Below, one piece after another: positions 1-19,030 of a DNA stretch of 64,000 bases. Under the pieces are notes generated by a model that was given only the letters and a program-made list of their open reading frames with translations, ran no database searches and was not told where the DNA came from. The stretch covers positions 2,413,001-2,477,000 of the forward strand of contig CP075895.1 of NCBI GenBank assembly GCA_018604165.1. The letters are read 5' to 3'. Position numbers and translations under genes: made by a program. Every line of letters starts with the position of its first letter. Positions within the stretch are counted from its first letter, which is position 1. This DNA comes from Chitinophagaceae bacterium LGM1 (lineage in GTDB: Bacteria > Bacteroidota > Bacteroidia > Chitinophagales > Chitinophagaceae).

Positions 1-935
1 CTGTTACTCTCAGAGAAAAATAAACGCCCGAACGGCTTTTGGATATACTGTGCAAGGTATGTTGCTTCTTCCATGCTCTCTGCCACAGTAGCCACTCGCA
101 TGGATACGGCGTAAAGCGGACTACTTATTTTCTCCTTAGCCAGTGGCAGCATTTCGGGTGCGTTTTCAAAAAATGGTTTGCCCTCACTATCACTGACACT
201 GCGTATGATACTCTCTGCCCAAGGATACTGCGTTCCCTGAAAGAGTACCTGTATGATGATTGACTGTCCCTGTTGTAGGTGTTCCAAGGCTGCGAATAGC
301 CCTATGAACGGGTCAGGGTCAAAGGTAGTAGTCATACAGATGGGTCGGGTGAATTCATCTCTGAGGCCATAGTAGTCTATGGCTGCAAAGCCTGTATCAC
401 TGCTACAGATGGCGATAATAGGGTCGGCTGTTTCTTTAATAGTACAGGCCGGAAAGTAGGCTTTGATTTGGCTTGCGACTAATGGCGCATCTGTGCCGTA
501 GCAGGCAAGCTGTAAGGTGGCGGTGTTTTCTGATGTGATTATTTCAAAAGATATGGGATAGCGGCTATCGGATAGGACGATGAGCAAACTTTCCATGTTT
601 GCCATCTTTACGACATGGCCTTTGGGCAGGGATATGGTAAAGGTTTGCAGTGGTTCGTCGCAGTCAAAAGGGATGGGGTCTAGGAAGATAGGTTCTTCTT
701 CCTGTATTACTTGCTTAGGGCGAAGTGCCTGCTGTACTTTCTCTGCTACAAAACTGAATATGGTATGTCGTTTGCCATCGTCTTTGACAGGTGCGCTATG
801 TGGCTTTGTATGGTAATAGAACGGCACAAAGGGTGGTTCGAGGTAGATAGGTGCATCTGCGTACAGCCAGCCTCTGCCAAGCTGTTCCCAATCGTAGAAT
901 TGGGCGGTGAGCTCTTGGGATAGCGAGGGCTGCAT
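1..935 (-). CDS. Conjugative-transfer-type protein, N-terminal part (3' end off the window)
   Basis: An open frame runs from an ATG at 935 leftward to the window edge without a stop, giving about 311 residues of an incomplete protein. It begins MQPSLSQELTAQFYDWEQLG. I see no signal peptide or membrane segment. A stretch near residues 210-290 (PDPFIGLFAALEHLQQGQ, then IIQVLF and PLYAVSMRVATVAES) resembles the region that precedes the ATPase domain in fused VirD4/HerA-like coupling proteins of mobile elements. That match is from memory of the family, not a search. It starts 3 bp after the stop of the membrane gene at 939-1529, so the two are probably co-transcribed. The separate ATPase lies at 5881-7053. 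Likely role: accessory part of a DNA-transfer or packaging apparatus. Confidence 0.6.
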   Translation of the reverse strand, partial: MQPSLSQELTAQFYDWEQLGRGWLYADAPIYLEPPFVPFYYHTKPHSAPVKDDGKRHTIFSFVAEKVQQALRPKQVIQEEEPIFLDPIPFDCDEPLQTFTISLPKGHVVKMANMESLLIVLSDSRYPISFEIITSENTATLQLACYGTDAPLVASQIKAYFPACTIKETADPIIAICSSDTGFAAIDYYGLRDEFTRPICMTTTFDPDPFIGLFAALEHLQQGQSIIIQVLFQGTQYPWAESIIRSVSDSEGKPFFENAPEMLPLAKEKISSPLYAVSMRVATVAESMEEATYLAQYIQKPFGRLFFSESN

Positions 936-938
936 AAG

Positions 939-1529
939 TTACATTGCTTTGAGGTAGTCGGCATTTGTAAACTGTGGCTGACGTTCAGCTTCAGTTAGCG
1001 GACGAAGCCCTTTAGCACTGCTCATGTGGTCAATGGCTTCATTGACTGCTTGCTTTACCATTGCTGCAAACATATCGTCCGTATCATGCTGGAAATATGT
1101 TTTGGAAAACATGGCTAGTACCAGGTATGGCCCTACTCTGGGTATGCGAGCTACGAAATCCTGAATAAAGTTGACAACGCTGCCAAACCACCAACTGACA
1201 AAGAATGTGTCCGCAAATGGTGCGGCACAGATTAGAAAGCGTTGTTCTCTGCGCGTTATTTGCAAGTATTCTCTTTGTACCAAAAAGTAACTGATTTCTG
1301 CCTTAGTTACTCTTTGGATGTCCATATTGGGTATCTTCCGATTCTTGAGCGCATCTTCTACCAGTTGGTAGAACTCTTGGCTAGAAAAGGGCGTGTTAAA
1401 GAGGTGTTGCCAACGGGAATGAATGGCTCCGAAGTCTTTAAACCTGCGGAAGAGGTACGAGAGAAGAATGATGGCGAGAAGGTAGTAACACAGCCATTTC
1501 AGTAGCTCGATGAGCATTTCTGTAAACAT
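939..1529 (-). CDS. Membrane-anchored hypothetical protein of the mobile element
   Basis: About 196 residues from the ATG at 1529; the frame is open to 1655, but the extra N-terminus is low-complexity and crosses AT-rich intergenic sequence, so I prefer the internal start MFTEMLIELLKW. One membrane segment is visible at residues 5-26 (LLKWLCYYLLAIILLSYLF), followed by a cytoplasmic-looking domain with many aromatic and basic residues (QRVTKAEISYFLVQREYLQ) and a second hydrophobic patch around FFVSWWFGSVVNF. I do not recognise a family. Tight linkage to the transfer-type gene downstream suggests a membrane component of the same apparatus. It is separated from the ATPase gene by the AT-rich three-gene cassette. 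Confidence 0.55.
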   Translation of the reverse strand: MFTEMLIELLKWLCYYLLAIILLSYLFRRFKDFGAIHSRWQHLFNTPFSSQEFYQLVEDALKNRKIPNMDIQRVTKAEISYFLVQREYLQITRREQRFLICAAPFADTFFVSWWFGSVVNFIQDFVARIPRVGPYLVLAMFSKTYFQHDTDDMFAAMVKQAVNEAIDHMSSAKGLRPLTEAERQPQFTNADYLKAM

Positions 1530-1825
1530 ATATGGTGAGTTTAATGATGACGAACTTTTTAGGGTAGTAGGTTGGTAGGGGTAGTATAAAGGTATGAAAA
1601 TTGGAAATACAAACATCTTTATCAGATTGTTGTAGCATCGTTTATTAGTAAGCATGACAGGATAACCATATAGATGTTACTGAATAATTGAGTTTTAATG
1701 CTATGACTTGATAAAATTGATACAGATGTACGATTAATATCTATTCTAATATCGGCTGTATTATAATTTCAAATGGCAAGAAAATATTGTGTTTAAAATA
1801 TAAAACTATAGTAGGAAATAATATT
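1530..1825. other. AT-rich intergenic junction
   Basis: About 296 bases, strongly AT-rich, with no convincing reading frame. It separates the right end of the transfer-type gene pair from the 3' end of the phosphoribosyltransferase gene. This is a plausible cargo boundary, but I see no clear target-site duplication. Confidence 0.4.
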
Positions 1826-4033
1826 TTATATAGTACATTCTTTAGTGATTAATTGCTTTAAAAAAGAACAAATACCAGGCTCTCCTAAAAATAACTCATC
1901 TTTTAGATCAACTACAGGCAATTTTTTCATTGCCATATTAAAAAGAATTTCCGACCTAAATGGTTTTGCATGATCAGCATACAGAAGATTGGTCAGAGTT
2001 TTCTTTTGCTCTATTTCTATTTTAGAAGAACGCAAGTCATATTTATGAGATGCTCTCAGTATGCATGCTCGTATAAAATTCTCATAATATCTTCCATTTA
2101 TATACTTCTCTACTGCATAGACCTTTGAAATCGGTTTGTCGAAGTTTTTATTTAGTTTTCCATTATCTCTCATAGATTGAATCGCGCTTGCAATAGCGAC
2201 AAAAATATCTATCTCTTGATCCATTGGTCCAAATATTGTTCTTTGTTGACCATGTTTCAGCCATTCTCTATTATTTTCATTCCATTGTAAAAAAAGGTTT
2301 GTTTTTAAGCCATCACGAGATTCAAGAATATTAAATCTATCTTCTAAGAGTTTAGTTCCTATAAAAGTGTTACCAAGCTCTTTTATTTTTTTATACTCCC
2401 AGCACCAAGGACATTCATCTCGCCCCCAATTCGGCAAAACTATTTCTTCAACACATGCAAAATTATCATACGGAAAGATAATATCTTTAATGCCTTTTAA
2501 ATATTCAATGCCTGTTGCTCTTGCTACACCGACCAAAAGACTAATTTGTGAATCTTTATTTTTTATCTCGAAGTTGTCTAGATAATATTTATAATTGGTC
2601 AATCTTGTACCAGTTTGAACAACATCGTCAATAATAAGTATTTTATTAGCGTTGTACAGAAGTTTTTTTGATTCTGTTGACAAGTTATTTAGGCGAGAAT
2701 GATCACATAACACTGTTGGTAAATTCAATACAGTTTTTGCCAATGTAGCCATTTCTCGTGCAGCGTCATGTTCTGGAGCAAGAATAACATTGGCATCTTT
2801 AAATAGTTCTAACTTTTTTAAAAATGCCTTTTTGAATTGTTCATTCTTTAGTAAGATTGATACATCAATATCAATCATATGGTGTCTACCATCTTCTTGA
2901 TCTTTATGAACTGTAAAGCAACCACTATCTGGGTATCGTTGAAAGAATTTTAATGCGTGTTCTGCATCTTTCCTGTCTATTGATACAGGTTTAGCATCAG
3001 CAGAAATTTCAAGTGTATATGTTCGTTCACTAATTTTTAGAGGCAAACTTCCCTTTGAACATTCCGAGCAAGATGCCTCTAGTCCTTTGAAGTCGAGTGG
3101 TAATTGGCAATATATATCTTCTGAAAAACTATCAGTTGATTTACAAAGTTCAGGTAGTGAGAATAAGTAAACATTATCAATAAAATTAGCACCAGCCTTT
3201 TCACAGATGCTTATTAATCTTTCAGCAATCCTACCAGTTCCACGTGCTGAAAAAATATTTAACACGTTAAAAGGCGATGATATTAATTTTTTAAAACCGA
3301 TTATCCTTCGAAACAATTCAGTATCATTCTCGTTGTATGATTTAAAACATTCAATTTTCCCAAACCAATCTGGTGTTGAAAGCAAGTTGCAGTCGTGGCA
3401 ATAATTCGGTAGGTTTAGACCCAGAGAGAGAATACTTCCAGAATCAAGGAGAATGAGTGGTTTTGAATGTACGTGTGGAAGTAACCAAAAACATATTGCA
3501 TCAAGTGCATCTTTTGAATATAGAGCATTACCTATTCTAAGGAAACTCCTGTAATGACTACCATTGGGCCCGATATAGTGGTAGTCGTTATCTTCATTAA
3601 GTAAAACATTTGGTTGGCTAACAATTGAAAGGAGTTCTGCATGTCTTAACTCTTTAAGAAGCAATTTTTCTGTAAAGTGAATTTCTGCTTTTGCTGAAGA
3701 TCTATAATGAACTATTTTATGCTCTTTCCCATTCCAATTGAGAATAAAAATTGATTTCGATTTAAATCTTTGACAAAATAATTCTATTAGTGATTTGTCA
3801 TTTTTCAATGTGTTAATTTCCGGTTGGTGTAACCTTAACACTATTAAATCAAACTGTTTTTTTAATGGGTCAACTTTATACGGAATAATATCTAAAAAAG
3901 ATAAATTGGCATTTCTTGGAATAGGAACATAGTAAATCGTTATTTTTTGAGGATAGTTAGAGAATGGCACTTCAATTGTTTGAATAGTGTCATCTGGCCA
4001 TTTATCAAGAATATTAATTGTTAATAAAGCCAT
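1826..4033 (-). CDS. Large phosphoribosyltransferase-domain protein of a three-gene cassette
   Basis: 735 residues from the ATG at 4033, or 750 from an upstream ATG at 4078. I chose 4033 because it overlaps the upstream stop as TGATG, the usual sign of translational coupling. The C-terminal half holds a type I phosphoribosyltransferase core: the PRPP loop KILIIDDVVQTGTRL lies near residues 464-478, preceded by NVILAPEHDAAREMA. The N-terminal half contains a second PRTase-like stretch (HYRSFLRIGNALYSKDALDA, about residues 160-180, then LILLDSGS). Cysteine pairs CHDC, CSEC and CPWC may bind metal. I know of no described protein with this layout. It is AT-rich compared with the flanking element genes. 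A nucleotide or nucleic-acid-modifying effector is an inference. Confidence 0.7.
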   Translation of the reverse strand: MALLTINILDKWPDDTIQTIEVPFSNYPQKITIYYVPIPRNANLSFLDIIPYKVDPLKKQFDLIVLRLHQPEINTLKNDKSLIELFCQRFKSKSIFILNWNGKEHKIVHYRSSAKAEIHFTEKLLLKELRHAELLSIVSQPNVLLNEDNDYHYIGPNGSHYRSFLRIGNALYSKDALDAICFWLLPHVHSKPLILLDSGSILSLGLNLPNYCHDCNLLSTPDWFGKIECFKSYNENDTELFRRIIGFKKLISSPFNVLNIFSARGTGRIAERLISICEKAGANFIDNVYLFSLPELCKSTDSFSEDIYCQLPLDFKGLEASCSECSKGSLPLKISERTYTLEISADAKPVSIDRKDAEHALKFFQRYPDSGCFTVHKDQEDGRHHMIDIDVSILLKNEQFKKAFLKKLELFKDANVILAPEHDAAREMATLAKTVLNLPTVLCDHSRLNNLSTESKKLLYNANKILIIDDVVQTGTRLTNYKYYLDNFEIKNKDSQISLLVGVARATGIEYLKGIKDIIFPYDNFACVEEIVLPNWGRDECPWCWEYKKIKELGNTFIGTKLLEDRFNILESRDGLKTNLFLQWNENNREWLKHGQQRTIFGPMDQEIDIFVAIASAIQSMRDNGKLNKNFDKPISKVYAVEKYINGRYYENFIRACILRASHKYDLRSSKIEIEQKKTLTNLLYADHAKPFRSEILFNMAMKKLPVVDLKDELFLGEPGICSFLKQLITKECTI

Positions 4034-5205
4034 CAGGATTGAAACAAAAGTTGTTGATAAGGATTTGACTCTGTCCAAGGAAAAATCAAACTAATAGAAG
4101 TCCCTGGCAAATAGTTTCTAGTTGTTGCATCCCAAAATGCAAGCTGACTATCAGCATTATCATCTTGGAAAGAACTTTTAAACATATATAATCGCCCTGT
4201 TCTAAACACAATTAAGCCTTTAACCTTTTGCGTAGCTAACATTATTTTATGAAGCCCGAAACCAGCACCAACTTCATTTAATTTTGAGGTGTGATTTGGC
4301 AATAAAGCATTTTCTAGTGCATCTGCTTCTTCTTCAATTTGTTGTTTGTATATATCAGCATTACCTAAAATTTTTGCTGGAATTCCTATGCCGCAATCAG
4401 AAATTGTGAATTCAGTAAGATAAAAATCATTAAACTGTGATGGGCTAAAATGAAGTGATTTTTCTAAAGCACGTAAATAAGTAGTTACAGGAGTTGTTTC
4501 TTTTTCGAATAATAGTTCAATATGGGATTTCCATGTGTTGAGGCTCAGACGTTTAATTTCTAGAAATTGAATTTGATTAATTCTATTATTTGAGTTGTCG
4601 TACAATGCATGATCTGTTGCATTCTGAATAGCCTCTGCTGCAATATTGCTGCAAACAATCTCGACTAATGCTTGATTCTTAGTACTGATAATTTCGTATA
4701 AAAGATTTGAAAAATGATTATAAAATGTCGTAAAGTTTTGGTACTCTTTACTAGTATATTTAAAAATATCCGCTTGTTCGGGCACATTGAAGCCACTTAT
4801 CGAAAGTGCTGCTTTTTCATTTCCACTACCAATAATACTTTTAGACGCACTTAAAATTGAAAACTGTTTTTCTTTAATTGTACTTTTTACGTCTGTACCA
4901 GATCGGTCAATAATCTTATCAGCATAATGAACTAATAGGTATCCTATTGTTGTGTGTACAAGAAAACGCCAATTTTTATTATTTGATGCATATTCCTTTA
5001 ATATTTCTCCTATTTTAAGCTGTATCGATATTTTTTCTTTAAAGCATTTATGCAGCAAAGATGCTAATCTAGCATTTGCAAACAGTCTAGTTCCTTCCAA
5101 TTGATTTATTGTAATAACAATTTCAGATGGCTTATTATTATCAATTCTTTTATTAATATCTTCTACTAAATCTGCGGTTAAATATTTTGGCAACTCTATT
5201 TCCAT
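4033..5205 (-). CDS. STAS-like plus GHKL (HATPase_c) ATPase protein
   Basis: 390 residues. The C-terminal half carries the Bergerat ATP-binding motifs: N box AAEAIQNATDHA (about 189-200), G1 box DCGIGIP (about 270-276) and G2 box GAGFGL (about 313-318). There is no histidine phospho-acceptor region, so this is not a conventional sensor kinase. Residues 1-100 look like a STAS-like fold of the kind found with such ATPases (ITINQLEGTRLFANARLASL). It is the middle gene of three, 38 bp after the 168 aa gene and overlapping the PRTase gene by one base. GHKL ATPases of this solitary type act as conformational switches or chaperone-like regulators; here it may sense a signal and control the PRTase protein. 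Confidence 0.7.
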   Translation of the reverse strand: MEIELPKYLTADLVEDINKRIDNNKPSEIVITINQLEGTRLFANARLASLLHKCFKEKISIQLKIGEILKEYASNNKNWRFLVHTTIGYLLVHYADKIIDRSGTDVKSTIKEKQFSILSASKSIIGSGNEKAALSISGFNVPEQADIFKYTSKEYQNFTTFYNHFSNLLYEIISTKNQALVEIVCSNIAAEAIQNATDHALYDNSNNRINQIQFLEIKRLSLNTWKSHIELLFEKETTPVTTYLRALEKSLHFSPSQFNDFYLTEFTISDCGIGIPAKILGNADIYKQQIEEEADALENALLPNHTSKLNEVGAGFGLHKIMLATQKVKGLIVFRTGRLYMFKSSFQDDNADSQLAFWDATTRNYLPGTSISLIFPWTESNPYQQLLFQS

Positions 5206-5243
5206 ATCTTAAAGATAAAAAATCCTTTATATAATAAAGGATT

Positions 5244-5750
5244 TTAAGGTTTCGTTTTTGCATCAATAACCCAGCTGCTTAATGGTAAGACGTCTGTTTT
5301 TAATACCTCATTTAAGAATAACAAACGTTTAAACTTGTAGGGCTTATCTAATGAATCTGAAATTTCTCCAATTTTTATCCAAATTGTTTGAGGATCACTT
5401 TTAGTACTAATGGACAGGATTACATTCGACTTTTTAGAATTTGTTGGATAATTTGATAGAAAGGAAAGTGAAAAGCACTTATTCTCAGTAAAATGTTTTT
5501 GCGTAGAACTACAAACAAACCATCCATATGCACCCAAGCTTTTTTTTTCACAAACTTGAAAAATTAACCCTTCAATATCATGAGATTGGATTTCTGATAT
5601 TTTACTAAAACCATATTTTGAGAAAAGTAACGTAAAAAGATAGACAACTATATTTTGAACTGGTTCACTAAATAATGGCAATTTCGTAAGAGGTTCAATT
5701 TGCAATACTTTTAAGAACAAATCTGGTTGTAGCACTTGACAATTTTCCAT
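5244..5750 (-). CDS. Unknown first gene of the GHKL/PRTase cassette
   Basis: 168 residues starting MENCQVLQPDLFLKVLQIEP. I recognise no domain. It appears soluble, with no signal peptide or clear membrane segment, and is mixed alpha/beta by eye. It is the promoter-proximal gene of the minus-strand cassette and shares the low GC of the two genes behind it. The 130 bp upstream (5751-5880) is extremely AT-rich and must hold the cassette promoter. A sensor or small partner subunit fits the position, but nothing in the sequence proves it. Confidence 0.6.
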   Translation of the reverse strand: MENCQVLQPDLFLKVLQIEPLTKLPLFSEPVQNIVVYLFTLLFSKYGFSKISEIQSHDIEGLIFQVCEKKSLGAYGWFVCSSTQKHFTENKCFSLSFLSNYPTNSKKSNVILSISTKSDPQTIWIKIGEISDSLDKPYKFKRLLFLNEVLKTDVLPLSSWVIDAKTKP

Positions 5751-5880
5751 ATTTGATATTTTATTATTAAATAATATATTTCATGTTTTATTATGCATAA
5801 TAAATATATCATGTAAAGAATATGTATTAAATTGTGTTCTATAGATTATCAACTAAGTTTCCTTTGTATTTAATAATTAG

Positions 5881-7053
5881 TCAATGTATTAAGGTTGGTA
5901 ATGTTCTCGCACTAAACCCCTTACTACTCGCCCCATCAATCATCAGCTTAATATACATCCCATACCTAGGCAGGTTAATAAAATCATCTTGGCTGAATAC
6001 AGGGTAAAACTCTTTTGCAAGATATTCCGAATCAGTAGCACCTACCCTAAAGGATATAATAGTCCCCACATTCCCGAATATAGCTTTGCAGATACGCTCA
6101 TCTAATTGCTCTATGTACTGATGACACAAAAACAAGGATAATCCATACTTTCTGGCTTCTGACAGCACATCTGTAATAGCGAGAGTCAAAAATGAATGTG
6201 CCTCATCTATGTAGCAGTAGAACGACCTGCGGGTATGCTCCGGCTGCTTGGCTCTGTGCATAGCAGAGAGTTGTATAGCTGTTACCAGTATAGAACCTAA
6301 GAGCATCGTAGCTTCTTCTCCAATCTCTCCTTTGGAGAGGTTGACAATAAGTATCTTTCCCTCATCTAATACTCTCTGCATCCTAAAACTACTGGTCTTT
6401 TGTCCGAGTATGTTACGCAAGGGTGTACTTGTCCTGAATAAGCCCATTTTGTTGAGTATCGGAGATATGACTTCGTTTCTAAAGGATGGACTGTATGTTT
6501 CATATTCATCTGCCCAGAATGCATATACATGCTGGGCTGTTATATAACTAATGGCTTTCGCCCTGTATGCTTTATCTACTAACAAGGGCTGTATATCCAG
6601 CAAGGTAGCATCCGGTACTTCTAAAAGCGTCAGCAAGCAGTAGCGTAGTACATACTCCATTCTCGGACCCCAGTTCTCGTGCCATATCTTTTTGAATGTG
6701 CTAATTAGCCCACTTGCTACTAAGTGGTGATACTGCGGATGTATGCCCTTGAGTGGATTAAAAGCTATGGGGTTCTTGGTATTGGTGGCATCGAAGTAGA
6801 TAAGGTCTTGTTGTCTTTCTGTTGGTATCTGGCTAATAATATCTCTCGACAAATCTCCGTGCGGGTCTATGACACATAGTCCATTGCCTCTGTGTACATC
6901 CGACAAAGCCATTTGTTTTAACAGAGTGCTTTTGCCAGTACCGCTTTTACCGATACAGTAGATATGCTGCAATCGATCTTTGTCTTTAATGCCAAACTTC
7001 TTATTGGTATTTCTGTAGTTGGTTATGCCGATGGGCGTGATGTCGTTATCCAT
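5881..7053 (-). CDS. HerA/VirD4-like coupling ATPase
   Basis: 390 residues. Walker A is IGKSGTGKSTLL (about 34-45), followed by the typical CVIDPHGDLSRDII (about 60-73), and Walker B is YCYIDEAHSFL (about 280-290). A sensor-like LFLCHQYIEQL follows, as in conjugative coupling ATPases of the type IV secretion DNA-binding family. No N-terminal membrane segments are present, so a partner must anchor it; the separate proteins at 1-935 and 939-1529 are candidates. It would form a hexameric motor that moves DNA. The gene is divergent from the 79 aa and serine-recombinase genes and has the higher GC of the element backbone. Confidence 0.85.
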   Translation of the reverse strand: MDNDITPIGITNYRNTNKKFGIKDKDRLQHIYCIGKSGTGKSTLLKQMALSDVHRGNGLCVIDPHGDLSRDIISQIPTERQQDLIYFDATNTKNPIAFNPLKGIHPQYHHLVASGLISTFKKIWHENWGPRMEYVLRYCLLTLLEVPDATLLDIQPLLVDKAYRAKAISYITAQHVYAFWADEYETYSPSFRNEVISPILNKMGLFRTSTPLRNILGQKTSSFRMQRVLDEGKILIVNLSKGEIGEEATMLLGSILVTAIQLSAMHRAKQPEHTRRSFYCYIDEAHSFLTLAITDVLSEARKYGLSLFLCHQYIEQLDERICKAIFGNVGTIISFRVGATDSEYLAKEFYPVFSQDDFINLPRYGMYIKLMIDGASSKGFSARTLPTLIH

Positions 7054-7405: not shown

Positions 7406-9103
7406 ATGTATCAGACCATTAACCCCAAACTGATATTTTTCCTGTATGCCCGTAAGTCTTCAGAAAGTGAGGACAGGCAGGTACAGTCCATAGACGACCA
7501 AGTAAAGCGGCTCAGTGAACTGGCGGCTGCTTCTGGTATTACTATCCTCGAAATACTGACCGAAGCTAAATCTGCTAAAAAACCTAATAACAGACCTGTA
7601 TTTGCAGATATGCTACGGCGTATAGAAAAAGGTGAAGCTAATGGTATTTTATGCTGGCAGATAAACCGCCTATCCCGTAACCCAATAGATAGCGGCATGA
7701 TTAGCTGGATGCTCCAACAAGGTATTATCCAATGCATACAGACCATTGACAGAACATACCGCCCGGATGACAATATACTACTCTTTAACGTAGAAAGCGG
7801 CATGGCTAACCAGTACATCATTGACCTGCGTAAAAACTGTCGCAGAGGTATGGTTGGCCGCGCGGAGCGTGGCTGGTATCCATCACAAGCACCACTTGGC
7901 TATAGTAACGACAAAGAAAATAAGTGTATTATCCCTCATAAGCAGTATTTCCCCCTCATACGCCGTATCTGGGATACCATGCTTACAGGTGCGTATAATC
8001 CTGAACAAATCCGCCTGATGGCAAATACAGAGTGGGGTTTCCGCAGTCCAAGGCATAAACACTATGGCGGCAAAGAATTATCCCGAGGAATGATATACAA
8101 GCTGCTGGGTAATGTTTTTTACACAGGTATTTTTGAGTGGGCAGGCAGTTTATATACTGGTAAGCATACTCCGATGGTAACAGTAGAAGAATATGACCAT
8201 GTACAATTTCTATTAGGTAGAAAAGGTAAACCAAGGCTACAACGCCACCAATTTGCCTATACAGGGCTTATACGCTGCGGCACTTGCGGCTGTATGGTAA
8301 CTGCATCCGTTAAACAAAAGCACATCAAATCTACAGGCGAGCTAAAGCTGTTTACCTATTATCACTGTACGAGAAAAAATAAGGATATTAAGTGTACCAA
8401 TAAGCCTGTTACACTCCCTATGCTTGAAACTGCCATTAATGAGGACTTGAAGAAATACGCCATCATCCCTGCGTTTCTTGATTGGGCAATAACCATACTC
8501 GACGAGCAGGAAGCAAATGAAGTAGTTAATACTATCCATAGTAAAGCCAGCATAGAAACTGAACTGGAAACTGCCCAAGCAGAATTAGACAACCTCATTC
8601 GTATGCGTATGCGGGATTTAATAGACGACAGCAGCTTTATCAAAGAGCGAGATGTGCTGCAACGCAGCATCACAAAACTTACCACCCAATCCAACGAAAA
8701 ACCGAAAACGATGGATGCAGGTAGTTTAACTGAACTCGCCAAACAAGCTTTTCAGTTTGCAGCGTATGCAAGAGTACATTTTACAGATGGTACAATGGAA
8801 GCTAAAAAGAGCATTGTTAATTCACTTGGCTCGAACTATGTACTAAGCAATAAAAAACTCTTATTTGAAGCCTCAGATTGGCTGATGCCTATTGTAGAAG
8901 CCTATCCGTCTTTGTTGTCTGAATATGACAGGCTCGAACTGATAAAAAAGGTTGATACACAAGCTTATAATACAGCATTGAGCCTGCTTATTCAACGATG
9001 GTGCGCCATCGTTGACAATGTTCGAACCAAGTTAGCATCAGGTGAACACAATATACCTGACCTTAGCTCATACCATATAAGCGATAAATCACCCGATACC
9101 TAA
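7406..9103 (+). CDS. Large serine recombinase (integrase)
   Basis: 565 residues with the complete large-serine-recombinase layout. The N-terminal resolvase domain carries the catalytic serine in YARKSSESEDRQ (Ser about 18) and the arginines of QINRLSRNPIDSG. A Recombinase domain follows (residues about 170-280, GWYPSQAPLGY), then a zinc ribbon (RCGTCGC with a later YHCTRKNKDIKC) and a coiled-coil (ETELETAQAELDNLIRMRMR). It should integrate and excise the element by double-strand cleavage with a 5'-phosphoserine link to DNA. The attachment site could not be located. It ends 4 bp inside the convergent 79 aa gene. Confidence 0.93.
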   Translation: MYQTINPKLIFFLYARKSSESEDRQVQSIDDQVKRLSELAAASGITILEILTEAKSAKKPNNRPVFADMLRRIEKGEANGILCWQINRLSRNPIDSGMISWMLQQGIIQCIQTIDRTYRPDDNILLFNVESGMANQYIIDLRKNCRRGMVGRAERGWYPSQAPLGYSNDKENKCIIPHKQYFPLIRRIWDTMLTGAYNPEQIRLMANTEWGFRSPRHKHYGGKELSRGMIYKLLGNVFYTGIFEWAGSLYTGKHTPMVTVEEYDHVQFLLGRKGKPRLQRHQFAYTGLIRCGTCGCMVTASVKQKHIKSTGELKLFTYYHCTRKNKDIKCTNKPVTLPMLETAINEDLKKYAIIPAFLDWAITILDEQEANEVVNTIHSKASIETELETAQAELDNLIRMRMRDLIDDSSFIKERDVLQRSITKLTTQSNEKPKTMDAGSLTELAKQAFQFAAYARVHFTDGTMEAKKSIVNSLGSNYVLSNKKLLFEASDWLMPIVEAYPSLLSEYDRLELIKKVDTQAYNTALSLLIQRWCAIVDNVRTKLASGEHNIPDLSSYHISDKSPDT

Positions 9104-10673: not shown

Positions 10674-12281
10674 TTGCCAATGTCAAAAAAAGGAGTAGAT
10701 ACTAAGTTTTCATACCCTCATCAAGAGGACATCATCTTTTCAATTCATAATGATCCAATAAAAGACCCCTACAGTTCTTTTTTTGAAAAGAACATAAAGC
10801 ATTATGACAGAAAAAAACTTGGACAGTTTTATACACACAAGGAATTAGTCAAATACATCTTCAGTACTATTCCTGTAAATGAAAATTCAAGAATACTTGA
10901 CCCTACAGCAGGTGCAGGAGCGTTTTTGATTTCAGCCTTGACATATAACAATAATAATGATCAAAATATTTACGGTATAGACATCGATGCCAATGCTTTG
11001 AAATTATGTGTACAAAACATCTCGTCGAACGCAGGCGCTACTAATAGCGATAATTTCATTTGCGCTAATACAATACATTCCGAGTTGCGGGAACTATTTC
11101 CGGAAATATATTCAGAAGGCGGATTTGACGTTGTAATTGGCAACCCGCCATATCAACACGTAGTAGCAAAAAAGGATTACAATCCTGACGATGAAGTATT
11201 TAAGCCAATATTAAATGGAATAGTAAATGCTGCATCCTTAATCATAGCCAAAAGTTTGCAATACTTAAAACCGGGGGGCTTTCTTGGTTTTGTTTTACCC
11301 AAAGGCATTTTAAGGGTTGGCTCATTTTCGAATGTAAGAAAGTATATCGCTACCAATTTCCTTGTAAAAGAAATATTTGATTTAGGCCACTATTTTAAAG
11401 ACGTAAGAGGCGACCAGATTATTGTAATAATTCAAAAATGCAAACCCATAAATTATCAAAACGATGTATTAATAAACATACATAACAAGAACAAACCACT
11501 AGAAAACAAAACCAGCTATCGGATAAAACAACAGATGCTTATTGATTACGATTTTTACCCGGTGTATCGTAACGAATCAATCATACAATTATCTGCTAAA
11601 TTGCTTGGTATTAAAACTACACTTGATTCAATATGTGACGGCAATATATTCAGAGGCATTAACCTCAGCTCAAAAAATGATGCAATCAGTAAAAACCATC
11701 AAAAGAATTGTATAACAATTTACAGAGGCGATTCAGTAGGAAAGTTTGCAACCAGATATCCGCTATATCTTGATCTGAAAAAAATAAAAAATGACAACAA
11801 AATAAACCGATTGAAAAATGAAAAAATAATTCTTCAAAACCTATGTTCAAAGGAAGGTGGGATAGCAGCAACTATTAGCAGCGCAAATGAATTAAATATG
11901 GACACCGTAACAAACATACTATCTGCAAAAAATGATTTGAAGTTTTTATTAGGGATTATCAATTCTAAGTTTGCTGATTTCTTTCTGCTTCACATCATTT
12001 TTTTAAGTTCAAATTTCACCATGCATACAGACAGGAAATACATAGGCCAATTACCAATAGTATTGCCGGATACAACTATTATTAAAAAAATATCAGCAAT
12101 TGTTGATGCAATATTAAAACTGAATGGAGAAAAGGGTACGGAATATCAAAACTTGTATATTAAGTTGAATAAACTGGTTTATTCGATTTATGAACTAACC
12201 AACGAAGAAATTAATATAATTGAAAGTTGCTTAAAAGACACATTAAGTAGCAGGAACTATTATGGTCCGGAAAATGAATAA
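10674..12281 (+). CDS. N6-adenine DNA methyltransferase (Eco57I/TaqI type)
   Basis: 535 residues from 10674; an internal ATG at 10680 is equally possible. It opens with LGQFYTHKELVKYIFSTIP, the usual lead into the gamma-class fold. Motif I is LDPTAGAGAFL (about 75-85), motif II GIDIDANAL and motif IV IGNPPYQHV (about 156-164). The C-terminal half looks like a target-recognition domain. It transfers methyl from SAM to adenine in DNA. No cleavage domain is visible and no restriction gene is adjacent, so it may be a solitary modification enzyme, or part of a system whose nuclease is elsewhere. It is AT-rich compared with the backbone. Confidence 0.88.
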   Translation: MPMSKKGVDTKFSYPHQEDIIFSIHNDPIKDPYSSFFEKNIKHYDRKKLGQFYTHKELVKYIFSTIPVNENSRILDPTAGAGAFLISALTYNNNNDQNIYGIDIDANALKLCVQNISSNAGATNSDNFICANTIHSELRELFPEIYSEGGFDVVIGNPPYQHVVAKKDYNPDDEVFKPILNGIVNAASLIIAKSLQYLKPGGFLGFVLPKGILRVGSFSNVRKYIATNFLVKEIFDLGHYFKDVRGDQIIVIIQKCKPINYQNDVLINIHNKNKPLENKTSYRIKQQMLIDYDFYPVYRNESIIQLSAKLLGIKTTLDSICDGNIFRGINLSSKNDAISKNHQKNCITIYRGDSVGKFATRYPLYLDLKKIKNDNKINRLKNEKIILQNLCSKEGGIAATISSANELNMDTVTNILSAKNDLKFLLGIINSKFADFFLLHIIFLSSNFTMHTDRKYIGQLPIVLPDTTIIKKISAIVDAILKLNGEKGTEYQNLYIKLNKLVYSIYELTNEEINIIESCLKDTLSSRNYYGPENE

Positions 12282-13092
12282 CCTGACAGGCAAAGAATGG
12301 CTAAACTATTCCTTTTCAATTTGGAGAGATATCAGGAAATCCAAACATGAAAACAGCTTAAAGCATCCTGCCTTATTCCCTACCCAATTGGTTGAGCGAT
12401 TTATAAACATCTATACAAAAGATAATGGCGAGATAATTCTTGACCCCTTTCTGGGAACGGGCACCTCTTTAATAGCTTGTAATAATACAAAACGCTCAGG
12501 CATAGGGTGTGAATTAAACAAAGAATATGCCGCAATAGCAAAAAACCGCTTGAAGAATCAGGAAACAGCATTGTCTGCAGCTTATAAACTAAAGATATTA
12601 ATTGGTGACAATAGAAAAACACTGAAAAAAATCCCGTCAGGTAGCATTGACTTGTCAATCAGTTCTCCGCCATATTGGGATATTCTGAATCAAAAAAGAA
12701 CTGTTGATAATAAAGAGATAAAAAATTACTCGGACTCAAAAAAAGACATTGGCAATATTTCTGATTATAATGAATTTATTGACAGCCTGAAAGATGTATA
12801 TAGCGAAGTGTACAGAGTGCTTAAACCTGACAAACGCTGTATTATCAATATAATGGACTTGCGTAAAAAAGATAAATTTTATCCATTACACATAGATATT
12901 TCAAAAATGATGACAGCAATTGGATTTGAATTAGAGGATATTATTATCTGGGATAGGCAACATGAGTACAATAATATGAAAACACTAGGATATCCATGGG
13001 TTTTCAGGGTAAATAAAGTTCATGAATTTTTATGCGTGTTTTGGAAAAGAGAACATAGTGATAAAAAGATTAAAAAGGGCAAAGTTATATAG
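12262..13092 (+). CDS. DNA methyltransferase with SPPYW motif (N4-cytosine or N6-adenine)
   Basis: 276 residues; starts are possible at 12262 and 12274, and both overlap the preceding methyltransferase gene. The order is motif X-like KHPALFPTQLVERFI (about 34-48), motif I LDPFLGTGTSLIAC (about 60-73), then motif IV SSPPYWDI (about 134-141). SPPYW is more often seen in N4-cytosine enzymes. The C-terminus HEFLCVFWKRE is typical for the family. Together with its neighbour it makes a two-enzyme modification operon without a visible nuclease. Confidence 0.85.
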   Translation: MVRKMNNLTGKEWLNYSFSIWRDIRKSKHENSLKHPALFPTQLVERFINIYTKDNGEIILDPFLGTGTSLIACNNTKRSGIGCELNKEYAAIAKNRLKNQETALSAAYKLKILIGDNRKTLKKIPSGSIDLSISSPPYWDILNQKRTVDNKEIKNYSDSKKDIGNISDYNEFIDSLKDVYSEVYRVLKPDKRCIINIMDLRKKDKFYPLHIDISKMMTAIGFELEDIIIWDRQHEYNNMKTLGYPWVFRVNKVHEFLCVFWKREHSDKKIKKGKVI

Positions 13093-14060: not shown

Positions 14061-14371
14061 GTCATTTTTTTAGATACAATTCGCTGTAAAAAATCTGCTT
14101 AGCGCATAGCTACTCATCCGGCACTAACTGAATGACAGGCAAGGTTTTTACAAAGAATACGAGCTGTGAGAGGCTCTTTCCACTAACTGCACAGTCTGGA
14201 GATTGTTTGTAAAACCTGTGGCATGACCTTGCATGGCATGAGGGTGTGCCGACTTTCGCGGCTGCGGTAAGTAGTGTCCCTTTATAGGGTCTTTTATACC
14301 CCTTATGCTCTCAGCAATTCTTGCATACACTGATACTGAAACAATATTCTTTCACAATTAAACAGTACACA
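14061..14371. other. Intergenic region with inverted and direct repeats before ardC
   Basis: About 310 bp between the divergent ssb operon and the ArdC-like gene. It holds a long inverted repeat with one bulge (AGGTTTTTACAAA at 14142-14154 with TTTGTAAAACCT at 14206-14217), a direct repeat CACTAACTG (14122-14130 and 14181-14189) and a small hairpin CCCT-ttat-AGGG at 14278-14289. It may hold promoters for both operons or a transfer origin. No gene is seen. Confidence 0.4.
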
Positions 14372-15271
14372 ATGCAAGAAACAACCAATGCGCAGGCTAC
14401 ACAGCCTGTAAAAGATGTATATGCCCTTGTAACAGAGCGTATCGTAGCACAATTAGAAAAAGGGGTAGTGCCGTGGCGACAGCCTTGGATAGATGCAGGG
14501 ATGCCCAGAAACCTTGTGAGTGGTAAAGCATATCGAGGGCTTAACCTGATACTCTTATCCATGCTTGGCTATGAGCAAAACCTGTTTTTAACCTTTAAGC
14601 AAGTCAATGACTTAGGCGGTAAGGTAAGGCGGGATGAACAAGGCCACATGGTTACATTTTGGAAACAGCCTGAGAAAAAAGAAGCTGGCGAAGAACTAGT
14701 AGAAGATGCAGAACGGCGTAGGTCTATACTGCGCTATTACATGGTCTTTAACATCTCACAATGCGAACTACCTGAAAAGTACCAGCTACCTGAAATTGAA
14801 CCTGTGGCAAACCTTGTCTGTGAGGCAGTGTATGAGAACATGCCGAACAAGCCGCCTATTCGGTTTAAAGAGCAACAAGCATATTACAATCCGTTACAGG
14901 ATTACATTAATATGCCGAAGCAGAAAAGCTTTGAAAGTAATGATGCCTACTATGCAACACTCTTTCACGAACTGATGCATTCGACAGGGCATTATTCCCG
15001 CTGTAACCGCAAAGACCTCATTGAGATGTCGGAGTTTGGTTCGGATGCGTACTCCAATGAGGAACTGACGGCAGAGATTGGAGCATGTTATTTACAGCAA
15101 CTGGCAGGTATTCCATCTCAATTTGAACAAAGTGCAGCGTATATACAGAACTGGCTGCTGAAACTGAAGTTTGATAAGCGGCTGATATTTACGGCAGCAG
15201 GTAATGCTCAGAAAGGTGTGGACTATATTTTGGGGGTACAGGGTGATACAGATGAGCCAAAGACTGACTGA
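14372..15271 (+). CDS. ArdC-like antirestriction protein with zincin domain
   Basis: 299 residues from the ATG at 14372 (MQETTNAQATQPVKDVYALV); the frame is open to 14321 but the extra residues look non-coding. The N-terminal ArdC ssDNA-binding domain is clear: LEKGVVPWRQPW, AYRGLNLILLSMLGY and VTFWKQPEK. The C-terminal zinc metallopeptidase-like domain has FHELMHSTGH (about residues 199-208) and a later YSNEELTAEIGACYL. ArdC proteins enter recipient cells with conjugating DNA and protect it from restriction. This supports the conjugative or mobilisable nature of the region. Confidence 0.88.
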   Translation: MQETTNAQATQPVKDVYALVTERIVAQLEKGVVPWRQPWIDAGMPRNLVSGKAYRGLNLILLSMLGYEQNLFLTFKQVNDLGGKVRRDEQGHMVTFWKQPEKKEAGEELVEDAERRRSILRYYMVFNISQCELPEKYQLPEIEPVANLVCEAVYENMPNKPPIRFKEQQAYYNPLQDYINMPKQKSFESNDAYYATLFHELMHSTGHYSRCNRKDLIEMSEFGSDAYSNEELTAEIGACYLQQLAGIPSQFEQSAAYIQNWLLKLKFDKRLIFTAAGNAQKGVDYILGVQGDTDEPKTD

Positions 15272-17150: not shown

Positions 17151-17870
17151 TTATAATTCTTCTATTCTAAAAGGCATGTCATCATAAGTCCGCCCATTCA
17201 GAACCCTACCTGTCTTTTTCTTATTTGTACCACCCCATTGCTTAAAGAAAAAAGCAACCTCTGCTGCCTTGCATTGATCCATAATATCTAATACCCATTC
17301 TGTATTCATAGGACGTGCATTGTGCCCACTTTCTCCACCAACAATAACCCAGTCAATATTTGTCAAATTCATTTTTGGTAAAGGGCCTATTAGTGGTTCA
17401 CACGAGAGAAATTTATTTCGTGCATTCGTTTGTTGTAGTAACCCTATTCGATTCATTACCTTCTCATTCTCAACCGATACACCCATCCAAATATTATGCG
17501 ACCATTTTAATTCTTGATGTATTTGCAATAACCTGTGTGCCCGTTTGGTAAGAACTTGAAAGACATGCTGAGGGTTTTCATTCATAACTGTAAAAACCTT
17601 TTGGATAAATTCTAACGGCACATCTTTATGAAAAAGATCACTCATAGAATTGACAAATACTATTTTTTGCCGTTTCCATGTTGCAGGAATTTTTAGTGCT
17701 TCTTCATGCAATGTTAATTTAAAGGCATCCTTATACTTTTCGACACCCATTGCTTGCAGGCGTTTCGACATTACTTCTGCATAACAATATTTGCACCCGG
17801 CAGAAATTTTTGTACATCCGGTTACAGGATTCCATGTCATTTCAGTCCATTCAATACTTGATTGTGCCAT
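17151..17870 (-). CDS. DUF5131 (phage Gp37/Gp68) radical-SAM-like protein
   Basis: 239 residues of the Gp37/Gp68 family. The start, SSIEWTEMTWNPVTGCTKIS, leads to three cysteines CTKISAGCKYCYAE (C19, C26, C29), the three-Cys motif thought to hold an iron-sulfur cluster. Later conserved parts are FVNSMSDLFHKDVP, FQVLTKRAHRL, WMGVSVEN, FLSCEPLIGPL and VIVGGESG. The function is unsettled. It starts 2 bp after the stop of the TcmP gene, the partner it is usually found with. Confidence 0.88.
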   Translation of the reverse strand: MAQSSIEWTEMTWNPVTGCTKISAGCKYCYAEVMSKRLQAMGVEKYKDAFKLTLHEEALKIPATWKRQKIVFVNSMSDLFHKDVPLEFIQKVFTVMNENPQHVFQVLTKRAHRLLQIHQELKWSHNIWMGVSVENEKVMNRIGLLQQTNARNKFLSCEPLIGPLPKMNLTNIDWVIVGGESGHNARPMNTEWVLDIMDQCKAAEVAFFFKQWGGTNKKKTGRVLNGRTYDDMPFRIEEL

Positions 17871-17872
17871 AC

Positions 17873-19030
17873 TTATTTCATTCTAAACGTGTATTTAATT
17901 TTCCTTTCTTTATACACAGCATATGTAAGTCCAAAGCTATTTGTATTCACAATATGACCAAATAAATCCTGAATTACCAATTTTCCTTCTCTTTTTAGCC
18001 GTCGTATTACTTCATTGCAATGCTTAGGCAGAAATTGATTCTTTAATGTAAACTCATATAATTCAAGGTTATTGCATGACTGCCGCTGTTTTAATAATTC
18101 CTTTAAAATTTTCTCAAGCCTCTCTTCTGTATATGTTTTATCAAGTACTTCCAGGTTATCTCCAAACAGTGTATTACCGATGCTCTGCTGGTTAAACCCC
18201 TTACCTAGTGAGTCGTTTTTCCATTTTACTTCCAGGAATTTTTCTAAACCATAAATATGGTGTCCGATAAAGAACACTGCATAGTAGTTTGCGCTATCCC
18301 TTTGTATGTAGTGTGAGGATGTATAATAACTGTTATCAAAAGAAAACGCTTGTGTCAGCTCATTTATGTAGTCAAAGACATTTGTAAAATTTGATTGTAG
18401 CGCTTTCTCGTTACCTGCAAAAAATTCATTTGTGAACTTCCTGAGATTGTCATAGCACTTTGTTTCAAAATCAGTTTGTGCTTTTCCTGTAAAACGATAC
18501 ATCTGTGCTACAGGCAGAAACAGTAATACTTCTGTTCTATTGGTTTCAAGAATTTTCAGTAAGCTATTTTTTTGAATTTTAGAATAGCCGTATGGGTCTA
18601 TGAATACCAGATTGCGTTCTCGTTGGCTGTATGATTTTATATTGTTAGCTGTAACCTCAAACATTGCATCGGCATCTAAGTTATATGCTTCTATCTTACA
18701 ATTGGTTAATGGCAAACTATCTAAAACATCTTGGACCCCATTTACCTTTGTCGCATCAAAATCATTTATTACCAGACGAATTGGTTTTACGACTTTGCCT
18801 TGTTCGTTAAAGGAACTTATGTAATTGAGTATTTGACTTGCAGCAATAAGCGGGCTTCCTAAATTGCCGTCTTCATATACTCCTGCACCACAAAAAATAT
18901 CGAAGAGGTTAATTCGATCTATAAACTGACTGTTACCTAAGATAGGTAGATATTCACTCAGATAATCCTTGTACAGATTCAGTTTTGCTTGTGAATGAGG
19001 CAAAACATTTGATTTCACATCTTTTTTCAC
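17873..19030 (-). CDS. tcmP: Three-Cys-motif partner protein (TcmP)
   Basis: 385 residues. The N-terminus has the TcmP pattern: HSQAKLNLYKDYLSEYLPIL, then INLFDIFCGAGVYEDG (about 41-56), which looks like a methyltransferase-type glycine loop, and LVFIDPYGYSK near residue 145. TcmP proteins are encoded next to DUF5131 proteins, as here, and the two probably form one enzyme system of unknown reaction. The pair is common in mobile or defence-rich neighbourhoods. It is low in GC and forms the right end of the accessory block. Confidence 0.85.
   Translation of the reverse strand: MKKDVKSNVLPHSQAKLNLYKDYLSEYLPILGNSQFIDRINLFDIFCGAGVYEDGNLGSPLIAASQILNYISSFNEQGKVVKPIRLVINDFDATKVNGVQDVLDSLPLTNCKIEAYNLDADAMFEVTANNIKSYSQRERNLVFIDPYGYSKIQKNSLLKILETNRTEVLLFLPVAQMYRFTGKAQTDFETKCYDNLRKFTNEFFAGNEKALQSNFTNVFDYINELTQAFSFDNSYYTSSHYIQRDSANYYAVFFIGHHIYGLEKFLEVKWKNDSLGKGFNQQSIGNTLFGDNLEVLDKTYTEERLEKILKELLKQRQSCNNLELYEFTLKNQFLPKHCNEVIRRLKREGKLVIQDLFGHIVNTNSFGLTYAVYKERKIKYTFRMK

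Follow-up and report, generated by a model that had tools for sequence, protein, structure and literature searches.

This work describes a pair of overlapping genes in a 64,000-nucleotide stretch of the genome of Chitinophagaceae bacterium LGM1 (contig CP075895.1, positions 2,413,001 to 2,477,000; this whole stretch is referred to here as the window), a 3.32-Mb genome in a single contig. One gene encodes a GHKL (Bergerat-fold) ATPase/kinase-like protein of 390 amino acids (aa), and the other encodes a 735-aa protein with two predicted phosphoribosyltransferase (PRTase) folds; together they represent a module that is real, conserved, mobile, and defense associated. The pair is probably defense cargo of an integrative element. 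Our leading, though tentative, reading is that of a two-gene module distantly related to PDC-M65, a widespread PADLOC candidate for phage defense, in which a GHKL switch controls an abortive PRTase effector. The case is computational and draws on homology, gene pairing, predicted folds, conserved ATPase residues, a single canonical loop for phosphoribosyl pyrophosphate (PRPP), and a defense-rich context.

The GHKL and tandem PRTase proteins

Positions 1826 to 5750 of the minus strand hold three open reading frames (ORFs) of 168, 390, and 735 aa, located among transfer-type genes of a mobile element. The GHKL gene (4033..5205, minus strand), whose product begins with an alpha/beta domain, overlaps the start of the PRTase gene (1826..4033, minus strand) as TGATG; the junction of GHKL stop and PRTase start reads CCTGATGGC. 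The PRTase ORF is open from a TTG at 4078 (1826-4078, 750 aa), and the ATG at 4033 gives the 735-aa protein. GC content is 0.28 to 0.33 across 2001-6000, versus 0.479 at 1-1000 and 0.425 at 6001-7000, while third-position GC is 0.205 to 0.231 in the three ORFs versus 0.41 to 0.47 in three element genes. On these values, the block looks like cargo of other origin. A prediction made earlier from the letters of the window (the original prediction) had noted the three ORFs, the AT-rich block, and the TGATG overlap, all of which are present, and had described the block as splitting transfer-type genes, which is confirmed by VirD4/TrwB-type ATPase genes on both sides. Motifs were also located in both proteins: EAIQN (191), DCGIGIP (270), and GAGFGL (313) in the GHKL protein and IIDDVVQTGT (482 in the 750-aa frame) in the PRTase protein.

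The predicted structure of the 390-aa protein contains a SpoIIAB/histidine-kinase-type GHKL domain with the Bergerat fold, and that of the 735-aa protein contains two PRTase folds, so that both assignments made from motifs, including the second PRTase-like part, hold in the models. The GHKL ATPase motifs (Glu/Asn of the N-box, DxGxG of G1, and GxG of G2) are invariant in all 38 aligned GHKL proteins, the window protein included; the GHKL protein of locus L036, cut by a contig end, was excluded from these alignments. Profile comparison with hhalign relates the window protein to PDC-M65A-type proteins (E = 4.9e-16); on this measure it is homologous to PDC-M65A, but too distantly for that model to detect. 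Its N terminus shows strand-helix alternation at residues 2-65 and is STAS-like by secondary structure only; Pfam STAS did not match the protein, and the fold list for the whole-protein structure was filled by the GHKL part.

In the 750-aa frame, the PRTase protein comprises an orotate-PRTase-like domain (approximately 137-342), an adenine-PRTase-like domain (approximately 376-549) that carries the canonical PRPP loop, and a helical C terminus (approximately 557-749). Each domain alone fits single-domain PRTases in a fold comparison with VIA-align, which served as a second look at Foldseek's list. PDC-M65B from PADLOC matches the protein at E = 3.5e-17 (residues 105-720, profile positions 86-726 of 763), and by this match the 735-aa protein is related to that candidate distantly but over nearly its full length. 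Its identity to 34 relatives is 17 to 21%, and the tree places it on a very long branch; the window copy is best read as a deep-branching, divergent variant of the PDC-M65 kind. Among 35 aligned proteins, only C337/C340 of the three CxxC pairs listed in the original prediction is kept at 80% or more, and the C-terminal RFNDGIIQ-type motif that is conserved in relatives reads RYYENFIR in the window protein.

Two other assignments for the PRTase protein were rejected. Membership in Pfam PRTase-CE (PF24390), one of the "-CE" families that are said to stem from a conflict-effector survey by the Aravind group, was dropped, as the match at 436-548 is subthreshold (22.9 bits against a cutoff of 27). 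PRTase-CE matches at E ≤ 0.001 occur in 83 of 247 genomes of the phylum (over the cutoff in only 13), and 4 of 14 control genomes have matches, with none over the cutoff. Since subthreshold matches are so widespread, controls included, we read the match as a general PRTase signal. A PRPP-synthetase-like architecture was likewise discarded, with ribP_PPkin matching below threshold only and superposition of the tandem on PRPP synthetase giving a root mean square deviation of 26.5. Searching solved structures by sequence gave nothing convincing for the PRTase protein; alignment A3 led to a hypoxanthine PRTase at E = 0.18.

Relatives of the pair and the cargo slot

A single genome-contig scan yielded 29 loci in Bacteroidota, Pseudomonadota, and one Candidatus Obscuribacterales metagenome-assembled genome; the scan used one short pattern, with 29 of 55 candidate stretches confirmed, and may miss members. 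Homologues of the two genes occur together, in mobile elements and beside defense genes, which supports in part the defense or stress module of the original prediction: 28 of the 29 loci have a PDC-M65A-like GHKL gene immediately upstream of the PRTase gene, the sole miss being L048, where the PRTase ORF is broken off and there is no GHKL match. The upstream GHKL gene is also present at L005, L006, L014, L015, L021, L022, L023, and five plasmid loci, giving 10 further distinct loci (L005 equals L032 and L022 equals L050, with one of each used; one genome contributes both L041 and L044). Eleven plasmid records matched, three of them typed as conjugative, and five were fetched and checked for the upstream gene. 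Plasmid copies of the pair are annotated as hypothetical proteins, and some reside on large plasmids with metabolic neighbors. No further gene family adjoins the pair in more than 3 of 33 loci, and the conserved unit is a two-gene module of GHKL and tandem PRTase.

The distribution is patchy. One phylum sample of 295 other genomes gave 3 strong and 2 weak partial matches, and one order sample of 297 other genomes gave 2 strong and 2 weak matches. Overlapping samples of 395, 296, and 298 genomes and the genome-contig scan yielded nothing closely related to the window variant. A tblastn search of plasmids with the window PRTase and GHKL proteins returned nothing useful, nor did the window PRTase alone against viral contigs, where alignment A1 retrieved one locus.

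The 168-aa ORF (5244..5750, minus strand) lies outside this conserved pair. It is likely a real gene: none of 2,000 mononucleotide shuffles of 5206-5880 gave an ORF of at least 168 aa, the longest being 110. It matched no family in Pfam, PADLOC, or NCBIfam at E ≤ 1, nothing in the 197 other genomes of the order, and no ORF of the loci carrying relatives of the pair. Between it and the GHKL gene is an AT-rich, terminator- or attenuator-like hairpin of 12 bp followed by a U run (5219..5245, minus strand; −11.2 kcal/mol, z = −2.47, with 4 of 200 shuffles folding as well), which a GC-based terminator scan did not flag. The ORF may be a lone neighbor or an accessory under attenuation control. Given its lack of homologues, the intervening hairpin, and the absence of a recurrent third gene, a three-gene operon was rejected as the conserved unit. 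Thus, the three ORFs of the cassette originally proposed exist, but only the GHKL and PRTase genes form a conserved unit, and the 168-aa "sensor" that was to be its third part is not conserved.

The neighbors of relatives were compared to PADLOC for 111 of 251 ORFs at 30 loci, taking the nearest two ORFs of at least 110 aa per side within 6 kb and leaving out L022, L044, L048, L051, and the window. They match IetS (E = 0), a type III restriction enzyme (7e-255), PDC-S25 (2e-153), Drt2 (2e-134), PDC-S13 (2e-117), a type I specificity subunit (2e-103), and bSEFIR (2e-70), each in one or two ORFs and all from the best 25 of 198 matching families. In a control (20 fixed stretches in 17 genomes, with 103 ORFs), 26 families match, the best being RtcR models (to 2e-106, one ORF each), followed by mad3 (4e-33). 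As family counts are inflated by cross-matching restriction-modification and methyltransferase models, the contrast is one of strength and not a count of loci. By eye, the pair at L014 sits beside type III-like restriction genes in a conjugative-element setting. On a viral contig (L021:4692-9498), genes for a large NTPase-like protein and a SIR2-like protein come after the pair, again judged by eye. On Rhizobium plasmid p3 (L118:630-8022), the gene immediately upstream of the pair is thyX, dgt is found downstream, and a TIR gene is annotated close by.

The window pair occupies a slot with recurrent anchors. On the left are the end of a gene for a 1005-aa VirD4/TrwB-type ATPase of the element backbone (1..935, minus strand; the remainder lies beyond the window at L007:7918-10935) and a gene for a 238-aa backbone protein (939..1655, minus strand); on the right is a gene for a 390-aa TrwB-type ATPase (5881..7053, minus strand; Pfam TrwB_AAD_bind, E = 3.3e-10), which is again an anchor in related elements. 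Of the 197 other genomes of the order, 22 contain a TrwB-type relative. Beyond the right anchor lies a 565-aa serine recombinase gene of the mobile element (7406..9103, plus strand; Pfam Resolvase, E = 6.9e-18). Six slots show both anchors (L105-L110, with the large ATPase of L110 cut by the stretch end). Nine regions were fetched, and ten slot proteins picked by eye from seven of them were tested against PADLOC. The cargo includes a Pycsar cyclase at L105 (E = 3.7e-120), partial PRTase_III-A (4e-11) and PDC-M42C (7e-9) matches at L106, a type II methyltransferase at L108, and a type II methyltransferase with a ThsB-like TIR protein (3e-9) at L110. At L106:4146-5853, the PRTase_III-A-like protein, by its name presumably a type III-A retron effector, has an LDDVLATG loop and adjoins the PDC-M42C-matching protein. 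L112, of which only the right anchor is shown, gave E1-E2 and JAB matches; the same holds for the anchors of L111 and L113, the cargo of which was outside the tested set. The slot between the two VirD4/TrwB-type genes looks like a place for defense cargo, and with defense-type genes that differ between genomes it is a place to look for more.

Several other features of the element were observed. To the left of the window, a tRNA-Ser gene (L007:6165-6251) and the end of a second serine-recombinase ORF (L007:6086-7783) overlap on opposite strands, and this site is a possible integration site of the element. Near the pair, window positions 10674-13092 and 14321-15271 encode an Eco57I/TaqI-type methyltransferase, an N4/N6 methyltransferase, and an ArdC anti-restriction protein. 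At 17151-19030, a DUF5131 protein adjoins a protein with a GMT-like winged helix-turn-helix domain, possibly another mobile two-gene module.

PRPP loops, proposed mechanism, and rival explanations

SpoIIAB-type GHKL kinases combine nucleotide-dependent binding with serine phosphorylation of a partner. We assign the role of switch to the GHKL protein and that of effector to the PRTase protein because such kinases, the CapK and VapKSC systems (compared below), and PRTase effectors can be combined in one scheme, from which we infer the direction of the switch, its cue, its target, and the abortive outcome. The GHKL protein would be an ATP-dependent switch; it would bind the protein encoded by the overlapping gene and hold it inactive. 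Infection would supply a cue that changes the nucleotide state of the GHKL protein or triggers phosphorylation of its partner, freeing the tandem PRTase; single-stranded DNA is the most attractive guess for this cue, an analogy drawn from CapK and VapK, both STAS-GHKL kinases. The adenine-PRTase-like domain of the window effector would then bind PRPP-Mg and drain the PRPP or nucleotide pool, which would stop growth and phage replication.

In PRTases, two adjacent acidic residues of the PRPP loop hold the ribose of PRPP. Across a 39-row alignment without L048, the acidic pair (DD) of the second-domain loop occurs in the window protein alone; the same columns in the other 38 read GS (15), AS (8), AA (7), SS (3), GA (2), AL, AG, or SA. 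None of the 39 proteins has an acidic residue at the corresponding position of the first-domain loop (FSARGTG in the window; most commonly ISASTSG, in 18 of 39), and both loops are strongly conserved among relatives despite the missing pair. Pfam PRTase models had no match at E ≤ 0.01 in any of 27 scanned relatives, and a degenerate pattern of the window PRPP loop gave no useful match in viral contigs. With the acidic pair missing from all 38 relatives, catalysis by the PRTase is no trait of the family, and PRPP chemistry, which the original prediction proposed for the effector, is not to be assumed family-wide; the lack of the pair favors a binding role in most of the family. The simplest inference from the alignment is that the loop of the window protein is ancestral and was lost in the PDC-M65 lineage, although the loop could conceivably have been regained rather than retained. 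It is possible, if doubtful, that the window pair is a sampled survivor of an enzymatically active PDC-M65 ancestor attacking PRPP or nucleotides and that the PDC-M65 lineage turned the double fold into a noncatalytic, or differently catalytic, ligand-binding part.

These loops are the strongest of the points that weigh against a GHKL switch and PRTase effector, and they make a reversal of roles a serious, though unlikely, rival: the tandem PRTase would be the sensor of a ligand (PRPP, orotate, a nucleotide, or a modified base), and phosphorylation of a host protein by the GHKL kinase would be the output. Absence of the acidic pair from the second loop in 38 of 39 proteins and from the first in all 39, while loops and flanks stay conserved, is what binding without catalysis would leave, and the ATPase residues are invariant; against this arrangement, no conserved third gene offers a kinase substrate, and the window copy retains its canonical loop. 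Other points that count against the favored scheme concern the GHKL protein, which neither the PDC-M65A model nor Pfam HATPase matches at E ≤ 1, which a hidden Markov model of the relatives' GHKL proteins fails to pick, and for which a sequence search of solved structures found no GHKL protein. By comparison, PDC-M65A matches all 26 other members of alignment A4; among 27 members, HATPase_c matches 2 and HATPase_c_5 matches 1 (best E = 0.0075). The defense assignment also has weak points: PDC-M65 is itself a candidate system, a search of phage records with one classical relative found none, and methyltransferases alone are weak as defense evidence in a slot whose proteins were picked by eye. 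Two of those ten proteins (L107:4392-7586, 1064 aa, and L109:3896-5503, 535 aa) match nothing in PADLOC at E ≤ 1e-5; they are candidates for unknown defense genes.

An improbable explanation is that the pair stabilizes its element or serves in competition, in the manner of a toxin-antitoxin system, with phage protection at most a by-product. It would suit the location of the pair, in an element that has serine recombinases and a nearby tRNA-Ser gene, the conjugative-element setting of L014, and the copies on plasmids, conjugative ones among them; VapKSC, moreover, is an example of toxin control by a STAS-GHKL kinase (PMC13373217). The varied contexts, including large plasmids with metabolic neighbors, and the lack of a recurring small antitoxin-like partner gene speak against it. 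Least probable of all is a regulator of nucleotide metabolism or stress with no conflict role. PRTase folds do belong to nucleotide salvage, and thyX and dgt flank the pair on the Rhizobium plasmid, but the patchy distribution, mobile setting, and defense neighbors are at odds with such a role.

If the ancestral-survivor scenario were true, this would be a family of defense effectors in which PRTase enzymes and pseudoenzymes alternate; no other such family is known to us. PDC-M65 has so far been a pair of profile models without description. The window loop and the predicted models suggest identities for both, with PDC-M65B a tandem PRTase-fold protein and PDC-M65A a GHKL switch, and the anonymous candidate thereby becomes testable, the questions being whether it acts on PRPP and, if it does, why the acidic pair is missing from the other members sampled.

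Comparison with known systems

The closest known system is PDC-M65, with which the window pair shares a PDC-M65B match, the order of an A gene directly upstream of and overlapping or abutting B, and GHKL homology by profile comparison. It differs in a GHKL protein that escapes PDC-M65A, in the canonical DD that relatives lack, and in RYYENFIR in place of the RFNDGIIQ-type motif. As protein A has no PDC-M65A match although hhalign finds it homologous, we file the pair, on these profile results, as a divergent relative of PDC-M65 and not a member. Among the literature matches listed, no paper names PDC-M65 and none describes a GHKL and tandem PRTase pair, with supplements and closed journals outside the search.

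According to a 2026 EMBO J article (PMC13373217), STAS-GHKL kinases control immune operons or a toxin: CapK is an HTH-STAS-GHKL kinase that is activated by single-stranded DNA and phosphorylates the repressor CapS, and VapKSC is proposed to work through a STAS-GHKL kinase that releases a PIN toxin, the operon protecting against a phage. The window pair resembles these systems in having a SpoIIAB-resembling GHKL kinase-type domain after an N-terminal alpha/beta domain, an adjacent putative effector gene, and an immune context. In contrast, its putative effector is a tandem PRTase and not a PIN nuclease, and its N terminus is STAS-like by secondary structure only. No CapS/VapS-like STAS substrate was identified, with the 168-aa ORF familyless at E ≤ 1 and no third gene in more than 3 loci.

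A blastp comparison of the window PRTase with the PRTase_III-A-like protein of L106 gave no meaningful match (best E = 0.91). PRTase effectors are suspected in type III retrons (PMC12548924) and in a DprA-PRTase system (PMC9122126). The window pair is like these in placing a probable PRTase-fold effector beside a sensor gene, and unlike them in that its partner is a GHKL protein, rather than a reverse transcriptase with noncoding RNA or DprA, and in carrying two PRTase folds per chain.

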